The notes under the pieces: generated by a model
The model's input: the letters and a program-made list of their open reading frames with translations, nothing else
Database searches by the model: none
What the model was told of the DNA's origin: nothing
Part shown: positions 48,092 through 59,249 of the stretch, in pieces
Numbering within the stretch: position 1 is the first letter of the stretch
How the letters are laid out: each line of letters opens with the position of its first letter
Made by a program: the position numbers and the translations under genes
NCBI RefSeq assembly: GCF_001586255.1
Contig: NZ_CP014544.1
Span: 1,891,501 to 1,955,500 of the forward strand
DNA from: Zhongshania aliphaticivorans
GTDB taxonomy: Bacteria; Pseudomonadota; Gammaproteobacteria; Pseudomonadales; Spongiibacteraceae
Direction of reading: 5' to 3'
Length of the DNA stretch: 64,000 bases

Positions 48092-48415
48092 ATGAAGGTA
48101 ATAAAAAGGGTGGCCATCACTGTGTTGCTCGGATGGAGTGTCTTAGGCAATGCGGCATTAGCACCATCGGCAGTTCATCTAAGAGACTTGGACACGATGC
48201 TTGAGTTTATTCACAAACATCAATATGTCGCGATGAGCCTAGAAAGCATCGATCTAGTATCACTAACGATTTATTACAACAATAACTGTGAGGCAAAATT
48301 CGTACGAAGCAAGCCTAGCTTGTTAAGTCTAGGGCGGCCAGCAGGCCCGCAGCCTGGCATCGAGTTTGAACGCAGTACTTGCCCATTAACTGAAACCAAT
48401 GAAACCTCCCAATGA
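48092..48415 (+). CDS. Hypothetical small secreted protein
   Basis: 107 residues from ATG at 48092 (AGGTGGG upstream; starts MKVIKRVAITVLLGWSVLGNAAL, a signal peptide). The mature part has two cysteines (NNNCEAKF and RSTCPLTE). No family recognised. Confidence 0.55.
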   Translation: MKVIKRVAITVLLGWSVLGNAALAPSAVHLRDLDTMLEFIHKHQYVAMSLESIDLVSLTIYYNNNCEAKFVRSKPSLLSLGRPAGPQPGIEFERSTCPLTETNETSQ

Positions 48416-48729: not shown

Positions 48730-48757
48730 ATTTAACATAATATACATTATGCGAAGT
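48730..48757 (-). other. dif: XerCD dif site (chromosome dimer resolution site)
   Basis: Read on the minus strand, the 28 bases are an arm ACTTCGCATAA, central TGTATA and an arm TTATGTTAAAT. This differs from the E. coli dif sequence, as I know it, at only three of the first four bases; the last 24 bases are identical. The first arm corresponds to the XerC side and the last to the XerD side. The site lies in an intergenic gap, between the last plus-strand hypothetical gene and the first Tn3 transposase. This is where XerCD, activated by FtsK, resolves chromosome dimers, so the window covers the replication terminus. Confidence 0.93.
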
Positions 48758-48907
48758 TATTGATGTTCGGTACTTCGCCAATCTTAAGTGTTTCTTAATT
48801 ATTGGCCTATACGCTAGATACACTGGGTGTTTGACTGTTTCCAGAGAAGTTGGCCTGAAATAATACATTAACTCATTGTTTTAATTGAATTAATATGCTG
48901 ATAAAGT

Positions 48908-51900
48908 TCATGCAACTTTCAAAGCTCTCATTTGAGTAATCGTTGATTTAAATGATTTACTTGGCAACCTGTCAAAATCGTATACCCCGTGCATATTGAC
49001 GTGCGCCCATGCTATGACTGAGCCATTAGAAATTGAATTAATTACCTCTTGGCGCTGACTATCATCTAGCTGACAACAATAGTCAGAAAGGAACAGGTAA
49101 TTCCAGATAATAATGGCGTTCTTAAGAAGAGTCTTACACAACATCGCTTTCTGTATATCACTTTCAGTACCCACCCTTAGCTTTCCTTGACGTGCAAAAA
49201 AGACCGCTTCAGATAGTTTCTGGCCATGTTCGACCCGATTTAATTGCTTTTGAACATGGCGGCGTATTTCTGGGTGCTCTAAATAACTTAGAATGTAAGA
49301 GGACTTCAATAATTGACCAAAGCCCTGAAGGGCTTTATAAACATCTGATTTTGGTGATTGAGCTGACATCATCCTGAATATATGTGCTGCAGAGCAATAA
49401 CCAAGTTTGATTGATGCCATGAGATGTAGAACTTTATCCCATTGGCTTAAGATACTTTTCCTATTAATGGTGCTTCCTGGCTTCAATACACGCCCTTTCA
49501 TGGCCTGTTTAGTTTTGTCGTCATAGGTACATAAGGCTTGTTTATGGATTTTGGCAAATCGGGGTGCAAACGACACATTTATAAAATGCATTCCTGCAAA
49601 CACTGCTTCGGTAAAGCCGTGCTGGTCTGTTGAATGCCAGTGTCTCATTTCACCCTCTGGATACAGCGCCCGCGTTGATTCAACCATACCGTCGAGCATT
49701 GATGCGGCTTCACGATCAGATGAAGTATGAACATTGATGTTAAAGAACGCTTGGAATTCATCTGTATAAGAGTTCGCAGTGATACCTTGTTCTTTGCCGT
49801 AATATTTATAAGAGAAATTGGCTAGAAGGGAATTAACAGCAACTGTAATTTTTTTGCCGTCGCTACTAGTATGTAATTCACCTTCATTGTTGTGGAACAC
49901 CTTCGGCAGAGGCAGTGACTGAATAAATGACACCATAGCTTCATTGGCTTTCGAGAGTGAAGAGGGGGATAACCACTGTTTCTCAGTGTCACGCAGTTGC
50001 TTTTCAGATATATTCCGGGCAGCTCTGGCCATATTGTGGTGTCCAAGGTTAGTGCCTAAACTCATGATAGTGGCATAAACTTGTTTTAGTTTGATGCTAG
50101 ATAATTCTTTTCCCGATTTATCAGTTTGCAATACCTTAGAAAACTCCGAGTATTTATCTATCTCGGCCAACAGTTCGTAAAGTGTCACCGCTTTATGGTT
50201 GCTCAGCAGTGTTGGTATGAATTTCGAATTATCGTAATCGGCGTCTAATTTCTTCAGCAACCAACCTGATGGTCGCTTCTGAAATCCCTCGATCTCATTC
50301 CGATCAATCATGTCGTTCACGCAGTAGTACTGTTGATTCAGGTGACGACCGATTTTCTCCAAGACCTGTGGTCCGTCGACAAACGACTCAAGATTTGCTC
50401 GGCGAATCAATGTTTCCCGATCTGCAAGCCATTCCTGCAGGGGGATCAAGTAGCTTTGGTCCTCTCTGTATTTATACGAGTATTTTAAAATTAATTTCTT
50501 GTCTCGAATCCCTATTATAACCGCGCAAAATAGAAGTATTTTCCAGCGTGAAATGGTGGGTAAATTAGACTCTTCCATGACGAGCTCTTTTTCTGATTCA
50601 TTCAAAAACTCGGTGGGAGCTTTTTTATTGGACTCGCTTTCGTTAGAACGAAAGTACTCGATAGCCTCGATGAGATCAGGGTTGGAATTCTCACTGTCAA
50701 AGGTTAATGCTCGAAGTGCAGGAGAAAGCTTGCGTATTAGGCTCGTATGTTGATCAAACAGATAATGGTAATACCCCTTACGTTTTTGCATATTGATCAA
50801 GTCATTTTCGAATGTGTCGAACACGCGGCTGATGTCGTCCTCGTCACCTTCCCCAAAGAAAGCTTCAATCAAATGGATTACTTGCTCATTTCGTTGCGAA
50901 AGTGGCTTTTTTCCGTCTTTGGAAATGGTGTAAATTTCCCGAATCACGGCGCGCGATTGTTTGGCTGTATCTACAACTTGCCGATTCGCTTCTAGATGTT
51001 CCTCCTCACGTTGCGCTTTAACAGTCTGATCTTTCTTCTTTGCCATATTGACGGCACTTCGAATCACCTTCTTGAATGCGATGAAGGTGGCGTCTTGCCG
51101 TTGATAGAATTGGTCTTGGACAAAGCAGGCTAGATTAAGACTTAAATTTGCTTCGTTCTTTTGGCGACGTAATTGAGCAATATCATTCTTGCTGATTTGG
51201 TCTGAAAAATGACGAATGCCTTCCGGCATTAGATTAACAGACGTCAAGCTCGATTCAGCAGCAAAAAACATATCGCGACAGTATGAAAGTATTCTTGCAT
51301 TCCTGCTCATTGCTTGAAGGGAGTCGTCCTGATCGATTGTTTTTAGATGACTTAGTGAGAACGACGTTTTGTTTGAATGAACTTGGTTTAAAAGCAATTC
51401 CCGAAGGGAGCTAGTGCTGTGCTGATGCCATTTATCCAGCACGGATGACTCATATTCCCGCATACTCTCGGTAACGATCTTCGTTAACGTTGCATAAGAA
51501 GGGATACTTACGCGCTTAGCCCAGCAGTGATCCAACAACGAGAATAAGATTCTTTCGGCCTCATACCTCCGTGCAACCAGTAACCGAGCTACACCCATCA
51601 GTTCATTTGCGAAAGAAGATTTATAAGCATGCCAACCATGTGCCTGCAGAATGTGTTGCTTGTCTTCATTTTGTAGCGTCGTAGAGTACTCGCTAGGCTC
51701 AAAAGAGTAGCTAGAGCCCAAGTTCAAACGTTTTACAGCTGAATTTATATCTCGTTTATGTGCGGTTGATAAATCGAAGAACCTGCCTTTGGACTGAAAA
51801 TATGCTTTGTGAAGTAAGTAGCCAACTTTACGGTGAGATTTCTTATTACGCAGGTATTTGCGGGTAACCGTATCAAGGTTTATATAAACCATCCGCTCAT

Positions 51901-51970
51901 CGACTGTTAGGCTTGGGATACTGTCGAATATTCTTCGACGATGTCGGCTTAATATGATTAAATCTGACAA
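48908..51970 (-). CDS. tnpA: Tn3-family transposase (element 1)
   Basis: 1020 residues from a TTG start with an excellent AAAGGAG six bases upstream. Full length for Tn3 TnpA. N-terminal DNA-binding region of the DUF4158 type (AFRSxxRR-like opening), central helical part and C-terminal DDE catalytic region. Candidate catalytic Asp residues lie in VHTSSDREA and WHSTDQHGFTEAVF, with Glu in NRVEHGQKLSEAVFFAR. Catalyses replicative transposition. Low GC relative to the housekeeping part of the window. Intact reading frame. Confidence 0.92.
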   Translation of the reverse strand: MSDLIILSRHRRRIFDSIPSLTVDERMVYINLDTVTRKYLRNKKSHRKVGYLLHKAYFQSKGRFFDLSTAHKRDINSAVKRLNLGSSYSFEPSEYSTTLQNEDKQHILQAHGWHAYKSSFANELMGVARLLVARRYEAERILFSLLDHCWAKRVSIPSYATLTKIVTESMREYESSVLDKWHQHSTSSLRELLLNQVHSNKTSFSLSHLKTIDQDDSLQAMSRNARILSYCRDMFFAAESSLTSVNLMPEGIRHFSDQISKNDIAQLRRQKNEANLSLNLACFVQDQFYQRQDATFIAFKKVIRSAVNMAKKKDQTVKAQREEEHLEANRQVVDTAKQSRAVIREIYTISKDGKKPLSQRNEQVIHLIEAFFGEGDEDDISRVFDTFENDLINMQKRKGYYHYLFDQHTSLIRKLSPALRALTFDSENSNPDLIEAIEYFRSNESESNKKAPTEFLNESEKELVMEESNLPTISRWKILLFCAVIIGIRDKKLILKYSYKYREDQSYLIPLQEWLADRETLIRRANLESFVDGPQVLEKIGRHLNQQYYCVNDMIDRNEIEGFQKRPSGWLLKKLDADYDNSKFIPTLLSNHKAVTLYELLAEIDKYSEFSKVLQTDKSGKELSSIKLKQVYATIMSLGTNLGHHNMARAARNISEKQLRDTEKQWLSPSSLSKANEAMVSFIQSLPLPKVFHNNEGELHTSSDGKKITVAVNSLLANFSYKYYGKEQGITANSYTDEFQAFFNINVHTSSDREAASMLDGMVESTRALYPEGEMRHWHSTDQHGFTEAVFAGMHFINVSFAPRFAKIHKQALCTYDDKTKQAMKGRVLKPGSTINRKSILSQWDKVLHLMASIKLGYCSAAHIFRMMSAQSPKSDVYKALQGFGQLLKSSYILSYLEHPEIRRHVQKQLNRVEHGQKLSEAVFFARQGKLRVGTESDIQKAMLCKTLLKNAIIIWNYLFLSDYCCQLDDSQRQEVINSISNGSVIAWAHVNMHGVYDFDRLPSKSFKSTITQMRALKVA

Positions 51971-52154: not shown

Positions 52155-53015
52155 GTGTTATTTCTATTAAATGCGCAGTCAATGAATCCAACCACAGACC
52201 TTTATCAAGCCTTAGAAAAAGCTTACGGGCATTTCAATAGCGAATTGTTCGATAAAGCCCTACCCGAAGTGATTTTTACGTTTCAACGAAAAAGCGGAAT
52301 AATGGGGTACTTTTCACCTGAGCGGTGGGGAAATGCAGCCGGTGATACACGTAATGAAATCGCTATTAACCCCTCGTTTTTGGCCAGTTCCCGCCTGATT
52401 GAAATTTGTCAAACGTTAGTCCATGAAATGGTCCATTGCTGGCAGCATCAATATGGTAAACCCAGTCGAAAGGGCTATCACAACCTAGAGTGGGCAAAGA
52501 AAATGATGAGCGTTGGTCTAATGCCATCGTCAACGGGTGAGCCAGGAGGCGAAATTCTAGGACAGGCGATGGGTGACTACATTATTGAAGAGGGACAATT
52601 CATTAAGGCGTTTGAAGCGTTGACTGAGAGTATTAAGTTCGACTTCCCTTGGTTTGATAGAAAGGCTTTACCAAGGTTATATAACCCCGTTATAGCTGCG
52701 TTTCCTAGGAAAGACGAACATCAAGCAGTGGCCGGTGGATTGAAATTGAAATCTGAAAGTACGCTTCCCTCAGAACTAACCCAAGGGTTGATCGAGAATG
52801 GCGCGGTTCGAACTTTGGTCAACTATGAAGGTTATCAAGACCGTGAGACTCTCGCAGGAATGGCCCCAGATGCGTTTGTCATCCACGAAGCGCCAAAGAA
52901 ACCGACTCGAATAAAATATATTTGCGAAGGTTGTGGTACCAAGATTTATGGAAAGACGAAGTTGAACATTAGTTGTGACGATTGTAGCCGCTCTTTCTAC
53001 GCTGTCGATCAATAA
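52155..53015 (+). CDS. SprT-like zinc metalloprotease-domain protein
   Basis: 286 residues from GTG at 52155 (GAAGGA eight bases upstream); an ATG nine codons later is the alternative. The SprT domain has LYQALEKAYGHFNSELFDKALPEVIFTF and the zinc motif LVHEMVHCWQHQYG, with a further HNLEWAKKM. The C-terminal zinc ribbon is CEGCG...CDDCS. SprT/Spartan proteins cleave DNA-bound proteins or act as metal-dependent DNA-associated proteases; in bacteria they are often on mobile elements with unknown role. A ~90-residue middle region is unassigned. Passenger gene of element 1. Confidence 0.8.
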   Translation: MLFLLNAQSMNPTTDLYQALEKAYGHFNSELFDKALPEVIFTFQRKSGIMGYFSPERWGNAAGDTRNEIAINPSFLASSRLIEICQTLVHEMVHCWQHQYGKPSRKGYHNLEWAKKMMSVGLMPSSTGEPGGEILGQAMGDYIIEEGQFIKAFEALTESIKFDFPWFDRKALPRLYNPVIAAFPRKDEHQAVAGGLKLKSESTLPSELTQGLIENGAVRTLVNYEGYQDRETLAGMAPDAFVIHEAPKKPTRIKYICEGCGTKIYGKTKLNISCDDCSRSFYAVDQ

Positions 53016-53156: not shown

Positions 53157-54389
53157 CTAAACATTGCGCTCTTTACCACTAGCAGCTCGCTTTTTGTCAT
53201 CAGTCTGGACATAAACGGTGTCGGTGGTGGACATACTCGCGTGGCCCAGATCCTCGGATACGTCTTTAAGTGAGCGGCCGCGTTCGATCTCTAAACTCGC
53301 ACCGGTATGCCGTAGCCAATGTGACGTTGCTTCCTTGAAATTACTGGCATTATCTTCGCCGTAGCGTGCTTTCATTTGGTCGTATGCTTGATCAAATACT
53401 TCCTGCACTAACCTTGATAATTGTCGCGCCGTCATTCCCCCACGACCTCTGAGTTTTTCAATAATAGGGTGGTTTTCACCAGGCACAGGTAACTTGTTTA
53501 AGCCTCGGTAGAGCCGGTAGCGTGTTAAATAGCTTAGAAAGCTTGGAGGAACCGTAATATCGCGGACTTTCCTGCCTTTACCATAGATCTTCAGCCACCA
53601 ATTGTTGTCATTATCCTTCCAAAAGTGACTCATGGTGGGCGACCATTCTGCGCGATCTGAGTACTCAGAAATGCGCAGAAAAAGGGTTTTTAATGATGCA
53701 ATGAGAAACAGGCTTCGCTCATATCGCGAGTCGTCATCGGCCATGGTATGAGCAACCTCCAGCAGGAAATTCCACTGGTCTTCCGTTAAGCGTTTTACGT
53801 CCTTGACCTGTGCATCTTTGATCAAATATCGACAATCCTTCTTGGCTAATTGAACAGGGTTGCCGTAGCAGTATTCTTCATCAGTTAGATGTTTATAGAA
53901 GGCATTAACGGCGGTAAACGTCGCTTGTAAGGTTTCTTGCGAGGGACGGTATTTTTTCTTGTCCGGCTTTGATATGTCGCCTTTGGCAATCATCAGCCGG
54001 AATGGTGCCCATTCAGTGTTACTTGTGTACAGGCCGCCTTTAATCAGAAATTTCTCAACATTCGATAAACATATCCACGTTAATGGCGGTCGCCAGCAGA
54101 AATCTGCATATTCCAAAATATCGGCTTTTCGGTATTGGTCGACTGGCTTATCCTTGATGAGAAATGCCCAGAGGAGAAATTTCTCGACTTCAGAACGAAA
54201 TCGCGTAAATGTGTGTTCTGATTTGTTGCGGCCAATATAAGATAGAAATTCCTGACCCCATAGCCACGCTTTATATTTCCATTGATCGGTATCGGCTAAA
54301 ACCGCTACGAGGTCAGGAAACTCTTCAATCCTTACATCTTTGAGGTCTTTGTATGTGGGGTACAGCGGGACAGGTTTAGGGATGGCCAT
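53157..54389 (-). CDS. Tyrosine recombinase/integrase (element 1)
   Basis: 410 residues from ATG at 54389, which has AGGA seven bases upstream; ATG at 54404 would add five residues. The SAM-like N-terminal domain reads RSEVEKFLLWAFLIKDKP. The catalytic domain has Arg in FLRISEYSDRAEW, Lys in IYGKGRKVRDITVP, the box SHWLRHTGAS (HxxR), DLGHASMSTT and Tyr in TVYVQ. Probably resolves cointegrates or integrates the element. Its own promoter would lie in 54405-54602. Confidence 0.88.
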   Translation of the reverse strand: MAIPKPVPLYPTYKDLKDVRIEEFPDLVAVLADTDQWKYKAWLWGQEFLSYIGRNKSEHTFTRFRSEVEKFLLWAFLIKDKPVDQYRKADILEYADFCWRPPLTWICLSNVEKFLIKGGLYTSNTEWAPFRLMIAKGDISKPDKKKYRPSQETLQATFTAVNAFYKHLTDEEYCYGNPVQLAKKDCRYLIKDAQVKDVKRLTEDQWNFLLEVAHTMADDDSRYERSLFLIASLKTLFLRISEYSDRAEWSPTMSHFWKDNDNNWWLKIYGKGRKVRDITVPPSFLSYLTRYRLYRGLNKLPVPGENHPIIEKLRGRGGMTARQLSRLVQEVFDQAYDQMKARYGEDNASNFKEATSHWLRHTGASLEIERGRSLKDVSEDLGHASMSTTDTVYVQTDDKKRAASGKERNV

Positions 54390-54404
54390 GAATTTTCCTG
54401 ACAT

Positions 54405-54602
54405 CTACAGATAAGAGTATATAATCGACTATCAGTATTCTAGCACCCCGCACGCCCTATTTCCAATACGTCAGGGTATCGGAATTTTTGAGTCTGCTGG
54501 AGCCCTTTTTGCCAGACGGCCCCCATGATAATTCGTTAGGCCAATTCCCACCCGAAATAGCGAACATTAGTTCTCTGGCGCAAACCAGCGTCATAACCCC
54601 CC
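54405..54602. other. Gap upstream of recombinase 1, possible element end
   Basis: About 200 bases with no gene, between the recombinase start and the eptA promoter fragment. TATACT-like -10 elements for the recombinase are near its start. Two C-runs (54521-54524 and 54597-54602), read on the minus strand, look like Tn3-type G-rich ends. Which one is the real terminus cannot be decided here. Confidence 0.35.
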
Positions 54603-54653
54603 AGATTCAACTTATAGACAAAAATGCCCAATTAGGAATTTTAGACAAGCCCA

Positions 54654-54670
54654 CTTAAGACTATCTTAAG
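54654..54670 (+). promoter_or_regulatory. PmrA-type box upstream of the eptA fragment
   Basis: Perfect direct repeat CTTAAG-N5-CTTAAG, the form recognised by the PmrA response regulator, followed by AATTATAGCCTAT as a possible -10. It lies 93 bases before the start codon of the eptA-like fragment, the expected geometry for PmrA-controlled lipid A modification genes. Confidence 0.75.
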
Positions 54671-54762
54671 AATTATAGCCTATCGTTACGTACATTGACT
54701 GAATGTGGATTAGCAAAAGCGCTTCTCCCAACACTCCACCTACGTAACGAGAAGCTATAACA

Positions 54763-54942
54763 ATGCACTTTGGCCGTCGCCTAACGTCATATCAGCTATT
54801 GATTGCCGTCGCCCTATTCCTAGCGCTAAGCGCAAACACCACGTTCTTTCAGAACATACTGCAGATATACCCTTTGCAGGACAATGCTGGCTTTCTTGAG
54901 GGTCGGCCGTCATTCTGGAAAAATTCGCCAATTGTACCTTAA
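54763..54942 (+). pseudogene. eptA: Truncated phosphoethanolamine transferase (eptA) 5' fragment
   Basis: A 59-codon frame from ATG 54763 (GAGAAG upstream). The first ~45 residues (LIAVALFLALSANTTFFQ, NILQIYPLQDNAGFL) match the first membrane helix and following loop of EptA/MCR-type enzymes. After codon ~46 the sequence diverges, and it stops at 54942 within what looks like the left end of the second Tn3 element. The catalytic domain is absent here and may lie beyond the far end of that element. Normally the enzyme adds phosphoethanolamine to lipid A under PmrA control. Confidence 0.6.
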
Positions 54943-54960
54943 ATTATTGATATATAAGTC

Positions 54961-57900
54961 TTATTTCGCTTTTTCTGTCTCCAGTATCTTGATTCCAAAA
55001 TCCAGCGGCGGAATTACTTTTTCCAGATCCAAATTGTAGTCACCAAAGCGATTAATATTAGAATTTCGGTATGGTGAGAGCCCATTAAGCAGCTCTTTGT
55101 TGATTATCACACCCTCTTTCGACAAATGCTTCAGAACATGGGTCATTTTCTCAACGTTATAGAGAATCACCATATTAGCTACTAGCTGGTTGTATTTAAC
55201 GATTTTCCGCTGCTCATGACGGACGTTTTCTGCAATGATGCCCTCACCTCCAAAAAAGAGCCATTTAATAAAACCGTTAAATTCCTCACTTTTGTTTGTG
55301 GCTGATTGAATGGTTTTTCGAAGCTCAATTTCATCGATATAGCGCAGTAAAAAGAGTGTTCTTATCGCCTTTCCCAGCTCTTTAAATGCCAAATATAGCT
55401 TGTTTCTACGACTGTAGGTCCCAAGCCTACGCAAAATCGTTGAGGCGGTAATTTTGCCTTTCTTGATCGATATGACGACGCGAAGCATATCTCGAAGATG
55501 CCGCTCGATTAATTTGAAGTCTATGCTTCCTGCAAACAAGGGCTCAATACTTTTGTATCGATATCGATTGTCAGGTCGGAAAAGCAACAAATCCTGAATG
55601 TTGCGGATTCGAGGCATGAGATTGATGCCCAGCAAATGTGACAAACCAAATACTGGATAGCTTTGCGCCTGTGTGTCGCCATGTAACGTATCGGGCTGGA
55701 TGTCAGATTTGTTGTTCATTAGTCCGTCTAGTATGTACACCGCTTCATAGACACCGCATGGAATAAAATGACTGAACAATGCAATGTAGGTATCGGAAAC
55801 ATGGTAGTAACCAATACCACCATAACCGCCATATCGAATATGGTATTCCGTTAACAGGTTCTGTTCGTACAGATCCCACATCGTTCCATCAGCCGACGCG
55901 TGCTTGCCGCTGCCCCAGTATTTAGGTAGATCAAATTTATTGTAAGCATTGACGACTTGGGTGATCGCTTTGTCCAAGCGATCTTCGGAAGCATGTCTAA
56001 GGTTGAGCCAGGCAATCTGCTTTCTGCTGATATTCTTCACAGACTTGGCTGTTTGAACTGGCCCTAGATTACAGCCATAGCAAAATAACGTGGTGATGAA
56101 ACGCTTTTCGGGTTCATCTATACGTAATTCATTCCCTGACAACGGCCCAAATAGTTTATGCAGACCAAGCCACTTTTCAGTGTCGGTAAGGATGTCAATA
56201 ATGCTTACTTCAGGGAGGTTTTCCGTAATCAGTGCATCGAGTTTTTGCAGTTCGGCTAACGGTTGTTCACTTCTTATCGGACTGATCGACAGCTTACCCT
56301 CTTTGATCGAGGCGTGAAGATTGGCAGGAAATCGCTCGTCTACCTGTTTTGATCGATCTGATAGCTCCTGCTTTAAGTTAGTAACAAACAAATGCGCATT
56401 ATTCAGTGGCATCTCCACCTGTTCACTATACTCGTCTAATTCGTCATCCAATGTTTCATCGTCCACCAGTTGCTCGCGATAGTCATCAAATTCGACGCTA
56501 AACGGAATATACAAATCGCCCGATGAGAGCTCGTGCTTGATGTGTAACAACAAACAGAGTTCAAGGTATTTTCTATGGAAAAGTCGTTGAGTTATTCCGG
56601 TTTCGTTCTTCGTGTTCGACAGGATCAGCTTGCGCCATTTTTCTGTAAACCAACTGGTATCAAATGGCTCAGGCAAATGCTGATTAAGTGTCTCTTCGCT
56701 GATAAATTCTGATCGAGTACTACGCAAACTCTTTAGCAGGATAAGCAATGTCGTGCTGCTGGTATCGCTGGAGCTTGATTGCAAATCCAGTATATCCAGA
56801 CAATTGAAAAGCAAAGCGCGTTTCTGGCGGTAATTGCTTAACATGAAGGGGTAGTAATTGTTTCCGGCATAAGCAATGTGCTGATTGCAACGATCAATCA
56901 GCGCGCTAGCGTCATCGCCCAAGACACCTCCAATCGCTTGCAGTTTGGCTAATTGTTCAGAATCTTGGTCGTAAGCGATAAGAACGTCGCGAAATTTTGC
57001 AATCAAGGCATCGATTTGTTTTTGGTGCTCCAGGATATATTTGTTCAATGCGGCCTGGGCACCAGCTTCCATGCTTCGCAGCATCTTGATATACAAGTTT
57101 GCAACATCGTCCAAGGCTTTACTATGTTGTTGGCGAATCAATATTACGGCAAGTGCATAGCGCTTATGGACTTTGAGTCGTGCCATTTCGGGGGCTGTTA
57201 ATGCACGAGCCTCTAGGGCAAACTGCCGATATTTCACAACCGGAATGTTGGCCTCAGGGAGAGTTTCACCTAATGTTTGGAGCCAATGAACATGCTGAAG
57301 ATAACTTCGAACTTCTTTGTTACCCGGCTTTTTGGGTTCACGTTTAAGAATATTCCAGGCACTGTAAGCGCCATCGGACGGGTTCAGTAATTCATCAATT
57401 TTTTGTTTGGCTTCTGGCGAGAGATCCAGTCCAATCTCGCGAAAACAGGCATCATTGACTTTATTTCTTGCTGCGCGAGCGATTCGTTTGAGGACTGTAA
57501 ATCCGGGCAGCTCGAAATGATGATGCGCCAATTCCTCTAGCATCACGTTGATGATATCTGCGAGCATCTCTTTTGTCTCTGATGCATTTTCAGCAATTTG
57601 AGTGAGCCAAGGCTGGTCGCTTAAATCGAATGGCTTTATGCCGAGATATTCCCTTAATTGTTGTTGCTGACGTGATCGAGACCCCGACCGGTCGTAGTCT
57701 TTGAGCTGTTTAAGAGTAATCGGTCGTTTTATACCCATCGCATCGAGCACATGCTGCATAATCGAGCGTGGCACTGAGGCCACAGGCACAAAGTATCCGA
57801 GTCGTTGAAGTAATTTTAAATTCAGAATGAGCCCGACACGTAGAATCGGCCTTTTTTCTGATGAGATCAGTATTAGTTCTTCTGGTGTTGGAGTGTAATA

Positions 57901-57969
57901 CTCCTTGAGCTCTTTATCTGTGATGGTGTTGCGCAGTCGAGGATAGGCAGTTTCATGCAGACTGCTCAT
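54961..57969 (-). CDS. tnpA: Tn3-family transposase (element 2)
   Basis: 1002 residues, full length, ATG with AAAGGA upstream. N-terminal DUF4158-like opening (YYTPTPEELILISS...LNLKLLQRLGYFVP) and a catalytic C-terminal half. Key acidic sites are GKHASADGTMWDLY, VSDTYIALFSHFIPCGVYEAVY and a Glu within SEEFNGFIKWLFFGGEG. Clearly different from the element 1 transposase, so the two are not copies. Twenty-nine bases downstream of the recombinase gene. Confidence 0.93.
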   Translation of the reverse strand: MSSLHETAYPRLRNTITDKELKEYYTPTPEELILISSEKRPILRVGLILNLKLLQRLGYFVPVASVPRSIMQHVLDAMGIKRPITLKQLKDYDRSGSRSRQQQQLREYLGIKPFDLSDQPWLTQIAENASETKEMLADIINVMLEELAHHHFELPGFTVLKRIARAARNKVNDACFREIGLDLSPEAKQKIDELLNPSDGAYSAWNILKREPKKPGNKEVRSYLQHVHWLQTLGETLPEANIPVVKYRQFALEARALTAPEMARLKVHKRYALAVILIRQQHSKALDDVANLYIKMLRSMEAGAQAALNKYILEHQKQIDALIAKFRDVLIAYDQDSEQLAKLQAIGGVLGDDASALIDRCNQHIAYAGNNYYPFMLSNYRQKRALLFNCLDILDLQSSSSDTSSTTLLILLKSLRSTRSEFISEETLNQHLPEPFDTSWFTEKWRKLILSNTKNETGITQRLFHRKYLELCLLLHIKHELSSGDLYIPFSVEFDDYREQLVDDETLDDELDEYSEQVEMPLNNAHLFVTNLKQELSDRSKQVDERFPANLHASIKEGKLSISPIRSEQPLAELQKLDALITENLPEVSIIDILTDTEKWLGLHKLFGPLSGNELRIDEPEKRFITTLFCYGCNLGPVQTAKSVKNISRKQIAWLNLRHASEDRLDKAITQVVNAYNKFDLPKYWGSGKHASADGTMWDLYEQNLLTEYHIRYGGYGGIGYYHVSDTYIALFSHFIPCGVYEAVYILDGLMNNKSDIQPDTLHGDTQAQSYPVFGLSHLLGINLMPRIRNIQDLLLFRPDNRYRYKSIEPLFAGSIDFKLIERHLRDMLRVVISIKKGKITASTILRRLGTYSRRNKLYLAFKELGKAIRTLFLLRYIDEIELRKTIQSATNKSEEFNGFIKWLFFGGEGIIAENVRHEQRKIVKYNQLVANMVILYNVEKMTHVLKHLSKEGVIINKELLNGLSPYRNSNINRFGDYNLDLEKVIPPLDFGIKILETEKAK

Positions 57970-57998: not shown

Positions 57999-59249
57999 TT
58001 AATCCCAGTGTTTATCGGTGCGAGGATCGCGAACGCTAACCTCCAGCATGCATTGATTCTCTGACGCGATCTCGTGCATTCGGTGAAGTAGTTCATCTAG
58101 GATTTCATCCAATGAATCGTAGTCACTGTGCTCGACCATAATCTCGTAATGCCTTCCTTCTAAATTGACTTTATTCATTGACAACGGCGACAAGCAATAC
58201 CCCTCGATTAATTTTTTTGCTCTGTCAGTGCGCTTGGAAAGCTTGCTATAAGGCTCTAGAACGAGAAGAACCTCCAATAGCGTTTGGATGGTTTTTTGTT
58301 CATCTTGTTCGATTGGCGCAATTACCGTAGCAATTCCCGTTTCTGTACGATACTGAGCAAATGGATCTGGCGAGTCTATGTATCGCATCGCGGACTGAAC
58401 ATCTTTCCAACCCACGTATTCCATCAAGGATTTCGTATCCCAACCTTGCGCATTTGCCCAGGTGGCGAAACCTCTTCTTAGAGAGTGACTGCTAAACAAG
58501 TTCGCCTCATCTATGTCGGCTCGTGAACAGCACTGCTGAATAATGCCGATGATGCTTGCGGGATGAAGTGCGTCTTCGGATATATGTCCCCAACGATTAA
58601 TCGAACGAAAAACCGGCCCGACCTTTATTTGCGCCGCACTGACCCAATCTAAATAAGCTTCGACAGGACAAAGTTGTTTTAATGCAGGAGCCTTGTATCG
58701 CCGCCCCAGTCTAGAATGATCGCCTTTACTGCGGGGGACAAATATGTCCATCCCTTTTCCAGACTCCGCCTGAATATGCTCTACACTAAGTCGGGCTAAT
58801 TCATCACTGCGGAACGCACGCCAGAAACCGATCAACAATAGGGCTTTATCCCGGATCGATTGCAGCGCTTCTTTTGGTGAGCCAGTTTCAATAAAATGAT
58901 CAAACGAGCTTACCAGTAGCGTTAGCTGGTCAAGCTGAATTGGTTTGGCTTGCTTTGGGACGACTGGGTGCAATTCGGCGATGCCCTTTAACACTTTTTT
59001 TACATGCGGGGCTTTGGTCGGGTCAGGAAAGCCCTGATCAAGATGCCAGGCCGCTAGACCAGCTAGTCGTTGACGCAGTGTGTTTACTGACAAAGTATTT
59101 GCATAATCCACCAAATAGCGAGCCACGCTATCGGCGGTCGCAGGAAGAAAACCACCCCAGTGACTTTCAAAATGTTCAACAGCCGCACGGTAACTTAAAC
59201 GCGTGTTATCGCGTGTTGCCGCCCGGATATAGTGATCAAGGTCTGTCAC
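57999..59249 (-). CDS. Tyrosine recombinase (element 2)
   Basis: 416 residues from GTG at 59249, two bases after the cadR stop, with AGGAAGTAAGG in the end of cadR as ribosome binding site. The N-terminal core-binding domain reads RLSYRAAVEHFESHWGGFLP. The catalytic domain has Arg in WRAFRSDELARL, Lys in VPRSKGDHS, HSLRRGFATWA, a Trp at the second His position (VGWKDVQSAMRY) and the Tyr. An extra ~110-residue C-terminal extension (EQDEQKTIQTLLEVL...) is unassigned. Likely resolvase of the element, co-transcribed with cadR and tnpA. Confidence 0.87.
   Translation of the reverse strand: MTDLDHYIRAATRDNTRLSYRAAVEHFESHWGGFLPATADSVARYLVDYANTLSVNTLRQRLAGLAAWHLDQGFPDPTKAPHVKKVLKGIAELHPVVPKQAKPIQLDQLTLLVSSFDHFIETGSPKEALQSIRDKALLLIGFWRAFRSDELARLSVEHIQAESGKGMDIFVPRSKGDHSRLGRRYKAPALKQLCPVEAYLDWVSAAQIKVGPVFRSINRWGHISEDALHPASIIGIIQQCCSRADIDEANLFSSHSLRRGFATWANAQGWDTKSLMEYVGWKDVQSAMRYIDSPDPFAQYRTETGIATVIAPIEQDEQKTIQTLLEVLLVLEPYSKLSKRTDRAKKLIEGYCLSPLSMNKVNLEGRHYEIMVEHSDYDSLDEILDELLHRMHEIASENQCMLEVSVRDPRTDKHWD

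Follow-up and report, generated by a model that had tools for sequence, protein, structure and literature searches.

A XerCD dif site and a candidate second, single-recombinase dimer-resolution module at the replication terminus of Zhongshania aliphaticivorans

The window analysed here is a 64,000-nucleotide stretch of the Zhongshania aliphaticivorans chromosome (NZ_CP014544.1, positions 1,891,501 to 1,955,500), and features are numbered from its first base. At 48730..48757 on the minus strand, in an intergenic position between open reading frames, lies a 28-bp sequence that reads ACTTCGCATAA TGTATA TTATGTTAAAT from 48757 to 48730. With the arms named as in the published layout, the XerC arm occupies 48747-48757, the centre 48741-48746 and the XerD arm 48730-48740. 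The sequence-only reading had described this sequence as identical to E. coli dif over its last 24 bases and as lying between a host gene and a Tn3 transposase. Both descriptions are accurate: relative to the E. coli sequence printed in PMC2731167, mismatches occur at positions 1, 2 and 4 only, and the site is flanked on the left by orf48035 (48092..48415, plus strand), a host gene common to G002, G011 and G017, and on the other side by a frame matching PF01526 from 48908. Nothing else in the window matches at up to three mismatches, a threshold reached in none of 100 dinucleotide-preserving shuffles, and at the same threshold there is no second dif-like 28-mer in the genome, which is a single contig of 4,204,359 bp. 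A half-site search allowing two mismatches returned no more extra matches than its reversed-pattern control. Both XerC and XerD are encoded in this genome, each scoring above its curated cut-off.

The suggestion that the window represents the replication terminus is supported by both GC skew and KOPS polarity, which switch at dif. Skew is positive in ten 20-kb samples between 0 and 1.87 Mb and negative in ten between 1.98 and 3.97 Mb. Over the contiguous region from 1.74 to 2.14 Mb, the raw cumulative maximum falls at chromosome position 1,962,406, which is 22 kb from dif and within the cluster of transposons. When the composite transposon described below is left out, the maximum moves to 4.4 kb from dif, and when everything from 68 bp beyond dif through the end of the composite is left out, it moves to 30 bp, a figure that is partly set by the cut, because the edge of the cut is itself close to dif. 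Within 200 kb there are 22 plus-strand and 2 minus-strand KOPS to the left, and 5 plus-strand and 14 minus-strand KOPS to the right, hence they converge at dif. The idea that the 28-mer is a copy borne by a mobile element (an IMEX att site or a pdif), the chromosomal dif being elsewhere, was rejected as exceedingly improbable: it does border mobile DNA, but it is single-copy, shares its flanks on both sides, to 48825, with G002, and marks the switch in skew and KOPS. Judged by its conserved XerD arm, its copy number, the accompanying xerC and xerD genes and its position, the sequence is the real XerCD/dif dimer-resolution site of this chromosome.

The site adjoins an accessory island. Homology to G002, a dif-bearing genome of the same genus, spans dif and ends at 48825, 68 bp past it, in keeping with the earlier estimate of a transposon cluster within about 100 bases. 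Position 48826, where homology to G002 stops and that to G011 starts, is the left border of a first Tn3-family element (element 1), the DNA of which is 93% identical in G011, another species of the genus, over 4.2 kb from 48825 onward. Element 1 includes a transposase gene (48908..51970, minus strand; PF01526, E 3e-94) and a SprT-like gene (52155..53015, plus strand). A right inverted repeat of the element was sought and none could be defined, and scanning genome contigs with an alignment of the transposase yielded no relatives. As element 1 is also present in G011, it is possible that it has a preference for the terminus.

Further right, an eptA-like phosphoethanolamine-transferase gene is interrupted after its first 45 codons (54763..54897, plus strand) by a composite transposon of the Tn3 family extending from 54898 to coordinate 91530. 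The terminal repeat of the composite (54896..54931, plus strand) recurs in inverted form outside the window, exactly at 69170 and with two mismatches at 91497, and the 5-bp flank at 54893..54897 recurs at the far end, at 91531-91535, likewise outside the window. A Tn3-family transposase (54961..57969, minus strand) and an adjoining second tyrosine recombinase, int2 (57999..59249, minus strand), lie at its left end; its cargo includes MerR regulator, cation-efflux and CusB/HlyD-type genes. Two other Zhongshania species, G001 and G016, have part of the composite at 99.9% identity. Three of the four Tn3 transposases in the genome are found within about 41 kb of dif, all in one cluster. Pairs of the form CTTAAG-N5-CTTAA(T/G) are present at 48780-48805, beside dif, and at 54653-54675, before the cut eptA-like gene; these resemble PmrA boxes, so the dif/eptA locus apparently has two promoters for eptA.

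Between dif and the eptA-like gene, about 5.7 kb (<6 kb) from dif, lies a second, self-contained module consisting of a recombinase gene and an inverted repeat. Neither this pair within the island nor its relation to loss of dif across the order had been noted in the sequence-only reading. The gene, int1 (53157..54404, minus strand), encodes a 415-aa tyrosine recombinase, and the 28-bp repeat upstream of it (54459..54486, minus strand), AATTCCGATAC CCTGAC GTATTGGAAAT, has 11-6-11 symmetry, is the proposed core site of int1, and occurs once in the genome when up to two mismatches are allowed. The active site, compared with the catalytic-residue list for tyrosine recombinases in PMC5357621, is complete (R244, K276, H362, R365, H388 and Y398), and two alignments, of 38 and 16 proteins, show all six residues to be invariant throughout. 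Int1 scores far under the NCBIfam cut-offs of XerC, XerD, XerS and XerA (for XerS, 38.6 against a cut-off of 267). A PDB sequence search gave two weak matches, one of which was XerA (5e-4), and PADLOC gave no result. The frame is open and 97% identical to that of int1 in G008, a genome without dif. A role as the resolvase of element 1 is not favoured, as int1 is conserved (96%) between G000 and G008 while the neighbouring transposase and SprT-like protein are only 36% and 50% identical; this implies that int1 is not carried in one fixed transposon.

The genus is divided with respect to these systems. Half of the 18 genomes carry dif and XerD together (G000, G001, G002, G004, G007, G010, G012, G013 and G014), and the other nine carry neither (G003, which is only 84% complete, G005, G006, G008, G009, G011, G015, G016 and G017); int1 is found in all nine of the latter. 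Gene order is orf48035-orf48430-dif-eptA in G002 and orf48035-repeat-int1 in dif-less G017, and int1 adjoins eptA in dif-less G016 and G006, so that int1 occupies the dif locus in these Zhongshania species that lack dif. A quick tree was made from 93 of the 126 distinct sequences of the int1 family, omitting fragments and named duplicates. In it the int1 genes of the genus fall into two well-separated clades, which makes repeated gain of int1 probable. Five of the genus genomes have more than one int1 copy or fragment, some beside Tn3 genes, as expected of a mobile gene.

The distribution of dif, int1, XerD and XerC was also studied in 293 genomes of the order, evenly drawn from a larger group and including drafts, with thresholds of three mismatches for dif and E values of 1e-40, 1e-85 and 1e-70 for the three proteins respectively. 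A dif match is present in 188 genomes. Relatives of int1 are found in 74 of the 81 genomes without XerD, as against 19 of the 212 with it (Fisher test, odds ratio 107, p 1e-42, ignoring kinship). Broken down by state, 170 genomes have dif and XerD only, 74 have int1 only, 17 have all three, 23 have XerD only, one has dif only, two (G104 and G187) carry int1 and XerD with no dif detected, and six have none of the three. XerC was matched in 214 genomes, comprising the 212 with XerD together with G180 and, weakly, G035; this profile also catches XerD, and 162 of the 293 genomes pass the curated XerC cut-off. Of the 74 XerD-less int1 genomes, 73 are without XerC, the exception being the weak match in G035 (3e-71). 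XerD is absent from 74 of the 93 carriers of int1, although it is present in the genome of the window itself. The 74 genomes are spread over 15 families, three of which (f1, f16 and f41) also include dif-plus members, so several independent replacements of XerCD/dif are likely.

Not every genome is accounted for by one or other system. At the set thresholds, and with drafts included, 29 of the 293 have neither dif nor int1, of which 23 have XerD. All of dif, XerC, XerD and int1 were undetected in four genomes of family f8 (G069, G129, G238 and G257; 99-100% complete) and in G077 (89% complete), which may have another substitute system. In G053, two extra dif-like sites (on C3 and C4, with 3 mismatches) accompany the main dif, and are perhaps the dif sites of secondary replicons.

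Where both systems occur in one genome of this sample, they are usually neighbours. The nearest int1 copy and dif are less than 20 kb apart on one contig in 15 of the 17 genomes, with a chance probability of 2e-27 if kinship is ignored. The distance is 57 bp in G074 and G181, 68 bp in G115, 0.7 kb in G138, 0.8 kb in G166, 0.9 kb in G268, 1.1 kb in G287, 1.3 kb in G283, 1.6 kb in G223, 4.2 kb in G184, 4.4 kb in G000, 4.7 kb in G264, 5.4 kb in G066, 9.8 kb in G261 and 18 kb in G056; in G207 and G260 the two are on separate contigs. These 15 pairs represent fewer than 15 events, because several share a genus (G074/G181; G138/G184/G223/G261; G056/G287), and the copy near dif in G283 is broken. Outside this both-system sample, the two are 1.1 kb apart in G001. 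Two of 80 int1 loci from named relatives also have dif-like sites: in L237, dif and the repeat are 188 bp and 75 bp upstream of int1, and in L181 a site with 3 mismatches is 7 kb from int1.

These named relatives are the best 80 of at least 530, and were used to ask how widely the repeat accompanies the gene. Many int1 relatives are preceded by an 11-6-11 inverted repeat, most often of the form ATGTCCRATAC N6 GTATYGGACAT. Pairing at 9 or more of 11 positions within 300 bp upstream was found at 44 of the 74 loci with enough upstream DNA, compared to 171 of 2284 control windows; at least one of these 44 (L178) is not family-like, the consensus matching another site in the same locus. The consensus itself was searched for at 42 of the 80 loci, including 28 of the 30 that failed the pairing test, and matched within 5 mismatches at 24, compared to 4 of 1359 control windows, although this is not an independent test, because the consensus was built from loci of the same kind. 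Of the 28 failures retried, 11 match at this level, and another 11 have nothing better than 9 mismatches, the same number as among all 42 loci. Scanning the 293 genomes at up to two mismatches identified the repeat in 36 of the 93 with int1 and 10 of the 200 others (p 1e-12), with the reversed pattern matching 9 of the 293. The remaining 57 int1 genomes have no match at this level, and some matches are distant from int1 (for example in G038, G161 and G115). For the group B proteins (36-39% identity in A2), short palindromes were sought up to 700 bp from 15 int1 genes with no obvious site, and none was common to them. One f38 genome, one f44 genome and eight of the twelve f26 genomes sampled with int1 have a separate repeat; in those eight, the f26 form, ATTTCCGATAA N6 TTATCGGAAAT, lies 24-210 kb from int1. 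A palindrome of roughly 28 bp, adjoining the gene or located in the terminus, was found for part of the family, and no site was found for another part.

The distant repeats are informative with regard to position. GC skew changes from plus to minus across int1 in seven of ten one-contig genomes. The clear exceptions are G083 and G114, in which the repeat is 210 and 164 kb from int1 respectively, and these distant repeats explain both failures of the int1-centred test. In G083 the last sample before the switch ends at 1,855,000 and the first one after it begins at 1,862,001, with the repeat at 1,857,994; in G114 the corresponding samples end at 2,140,000 and begin at 2,148,001, with the repeat at 2,143,783. 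Both switches fall inside sample gaps of 7-8 kb, and in each case one adjoining sample is weak (-0.010 and +0.009). Agreement between skew and repeat is coarser in G141 and G300, and G160 has no skew flip across int1. In G236 (family f44), over 260 kb round the switch, the skew maximum is at 1,673,281 and the repeat at 1,677,505, 4.2 kb apart, so that the site lies at the GC-skew switch in G083, G114 and G236. The perfect repeat in G236 reads ATTTCCGGTAA TAAAGA TTACCGGAAAT; it is the only family-like one of four perfect 11-6-11 repeats in that stretch.

CTX-type elements are known to form tandem satellites at dif. In G236 the repeat is followed by two tandem 2442-bp copies of a filamentous-phage-type satellite (G236:C1:1677505-1682416; L285 and L286). 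The copies are the same except for 5 bases, every one of them in the repeat's left arm, and each copy ends in a site with an altered left arm. Their products are a filamentous-phage-type replication protein (PF05144, 6.5e-68) and a helix-turn-helix, repressor-like regulator. We read this arrangement as a naturally preserved trace of recombination at the repeat, for which int1 would be the candidate enzyme. Among the part of the other loci examined for satellite copies beside the repeat, one partial repeat was found (L221).

Relatives of int1 extend to bacteria of note for chromosome maintenance. Colwellia psychrerythraea ND2E has a relative with 59% identity and the consensus repeat without mismatch, and Saccharophagus sp. 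K07 has one with 61% identity and a repeat with 4 mismatches; further named relatives are found in Microbulbifer, Kangiella, Marinicella and Parahaliea. XerD over the cut-off is absent in 21 of 24 named int1 genomes, four of which, including ND2E, have weaker matches. It is present in the other three, Marinicella sediminis, Catenovulum sediminis and the uncultured genome of L237. In Catenovulum sediminis (L217) the int1 relative and repeat are on chromosome 2 and XerD is on contig C1, possibly one resolution system per chromosome. A tblastn search of 72,556 plasmid records placed int1 relatives on 1491, all but two of which (1489) show less than 60% identity; 50,697 phage records gave one weak match. 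All eight large plasmids or chromids inspected, picked from the 20 best listed, have a family-like repeat upstream of the gene: the consensus matches within 4 mismatches in seven, and the eighth has a perfect palindrome of related sequence. Pseudoalteromonas chromids also carry int1 relatives, even though PMC7858055 reports dif2 sites of the XerCD type on chromids of this kind, which speaks against displacement there.

Taken together, these observations make it very likely that the 28-mer is the XerCD site and that int1 with its repeat is a second, single-recombinase dimer-resolution module, which has displaced XerCD/dif in most of its carriers. On a chromosome dimer, the two copies of the repeat would be brought together at the terminus by four int1 subunits, and strand exchange in the 6-bp centre would yield monomers, as in XerH/difH, XerS/difSL and XerL/dif; control by FtsK may be envisaged. 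Modules akin to those of large plasmids and chromids would repeatedly have come to rest at the terminus beside dif, with dif, xerC and xerD then being lost in most int1-carrying lineages, although both the direction from plasmid to chromosome and the order of gain and loss are inferred. The genome of the window would represent the two-system state. An int1-type module appears to have replaced the standard system in many related marine bacteria. The broader proposition, that a plasmid-type module displaced XerCD/dif many times in marine Gammaproteobacteria and is the substitute used by Saccharophagus and Colwellia, with the genome of the window having both systems, is reasonably probable.

The better of the two alternatives for int1 is that it is an ordinary integrase or Tn3 resolvase, with dif alone serving chromosome maintenance and the proximity of the two reflecting chance or an insertion hot spot. 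The Tn3 genes adjoining int1 copies in G000, G008 and G011, the multiple copies and fragments in five genus genomes, and the use of dif as a target by some insertion sequences (PMC10132070) would be as expected on such grounds. The near-exclusive association of int1 with loss of XerD, XerC and dif would not, nor would the occurrence of a single match in 86 of the 93 int1 genomes (at E 1e-40, not all candidates having been scored in some genomes), the repeat and the terminal location seen in families distant from the island of the window, or the independence of int1 from any one fixed transposon in G000 and G008; this explanation is accordingly considered unlikely. Alternatively, int1 could derive from dimer-resolution modules of plasmids or chromids and do no more than tolerate the loss of XerCD, the chromosome relying on a third, unseen system and int1 having some other task. 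The plasmid records carrying int1 relatives and the six genomes without dif, XerD and int1 lend themselves to this, but in G083, G114 and G236 the skew switches where the repeat lies, and in Zhongshania species without dif the place of dif is taken by int1, so that this alternative is held to be quite improbable.

A second module that displaces XerCD/dif would bear on a question posed by Carnoy and Roten in 2009, who left open how bacteria with large genomes but without dif/Xer unlink dimers, and named Legionellales, Saccharophagus degradans and Colwellia psychrerythraea among such taxa (PMC2731167). XerL provided the answer for Legionellales in 2022 (PMC9765430); int1 and its 28-bp site are now candidates for Colwellia psychrerythraea ND2E and a Saccharophagus. 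Among the CC-licensed PMC papers listed, surveyed by title and the start of the abstract, no account of an int1-type system was found. A supposedly core system would have been swapped in several lineages, and if so, two-system genomes permit direct comparison of both at one terminus. They would also be a natural counterpart to the laboratory replacement of dif by Cre/loxP, which according to PMC2731167 works only at the terminus.

In comparison with known systems, the dif of the window resembles E. coli XerCD/dif in its 28-bp length, last 24 bases, XerC and XerD, terminus position and KOPS convergence, and departs from it only in outer bases of the XerC arm, which differ among species (PMC2731167). 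XerH/difH and XerS/difSL, as described in PMC5357621, share with the proposed module a single recombinase gene and a terminus site, with the gene beside the site as in int1 group A, although int1 is longer (415 aa, versus 354-362 aa for XerH and 356 aa for XerS) and its site has 11-6-11 symmetry rather than the 11-bp centre of difSL. Going by the published description in PMC9765430, XerL is likewise a single recombinase of similar size (catalytic Tyr387, against Tyr398 in int1) acting on a site with near-perfect dyad symmetry of the arms, and in L. pneumophila its gene and site are apart, as in int1 group B; its orthologues are, however, reported there across Legionellales only. The plasmid-encoded tyrosine recombinases for dimer resolution treated in PMC11724359 are matched by the int1 relatives with an upstream repeat on all eight plasmids and chromids inspected. 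In contrast to those modules, most chromosomal int1 carriers of the order have no detected XerCD/dif, and the int1 module itself lies in the chromosome terminus.
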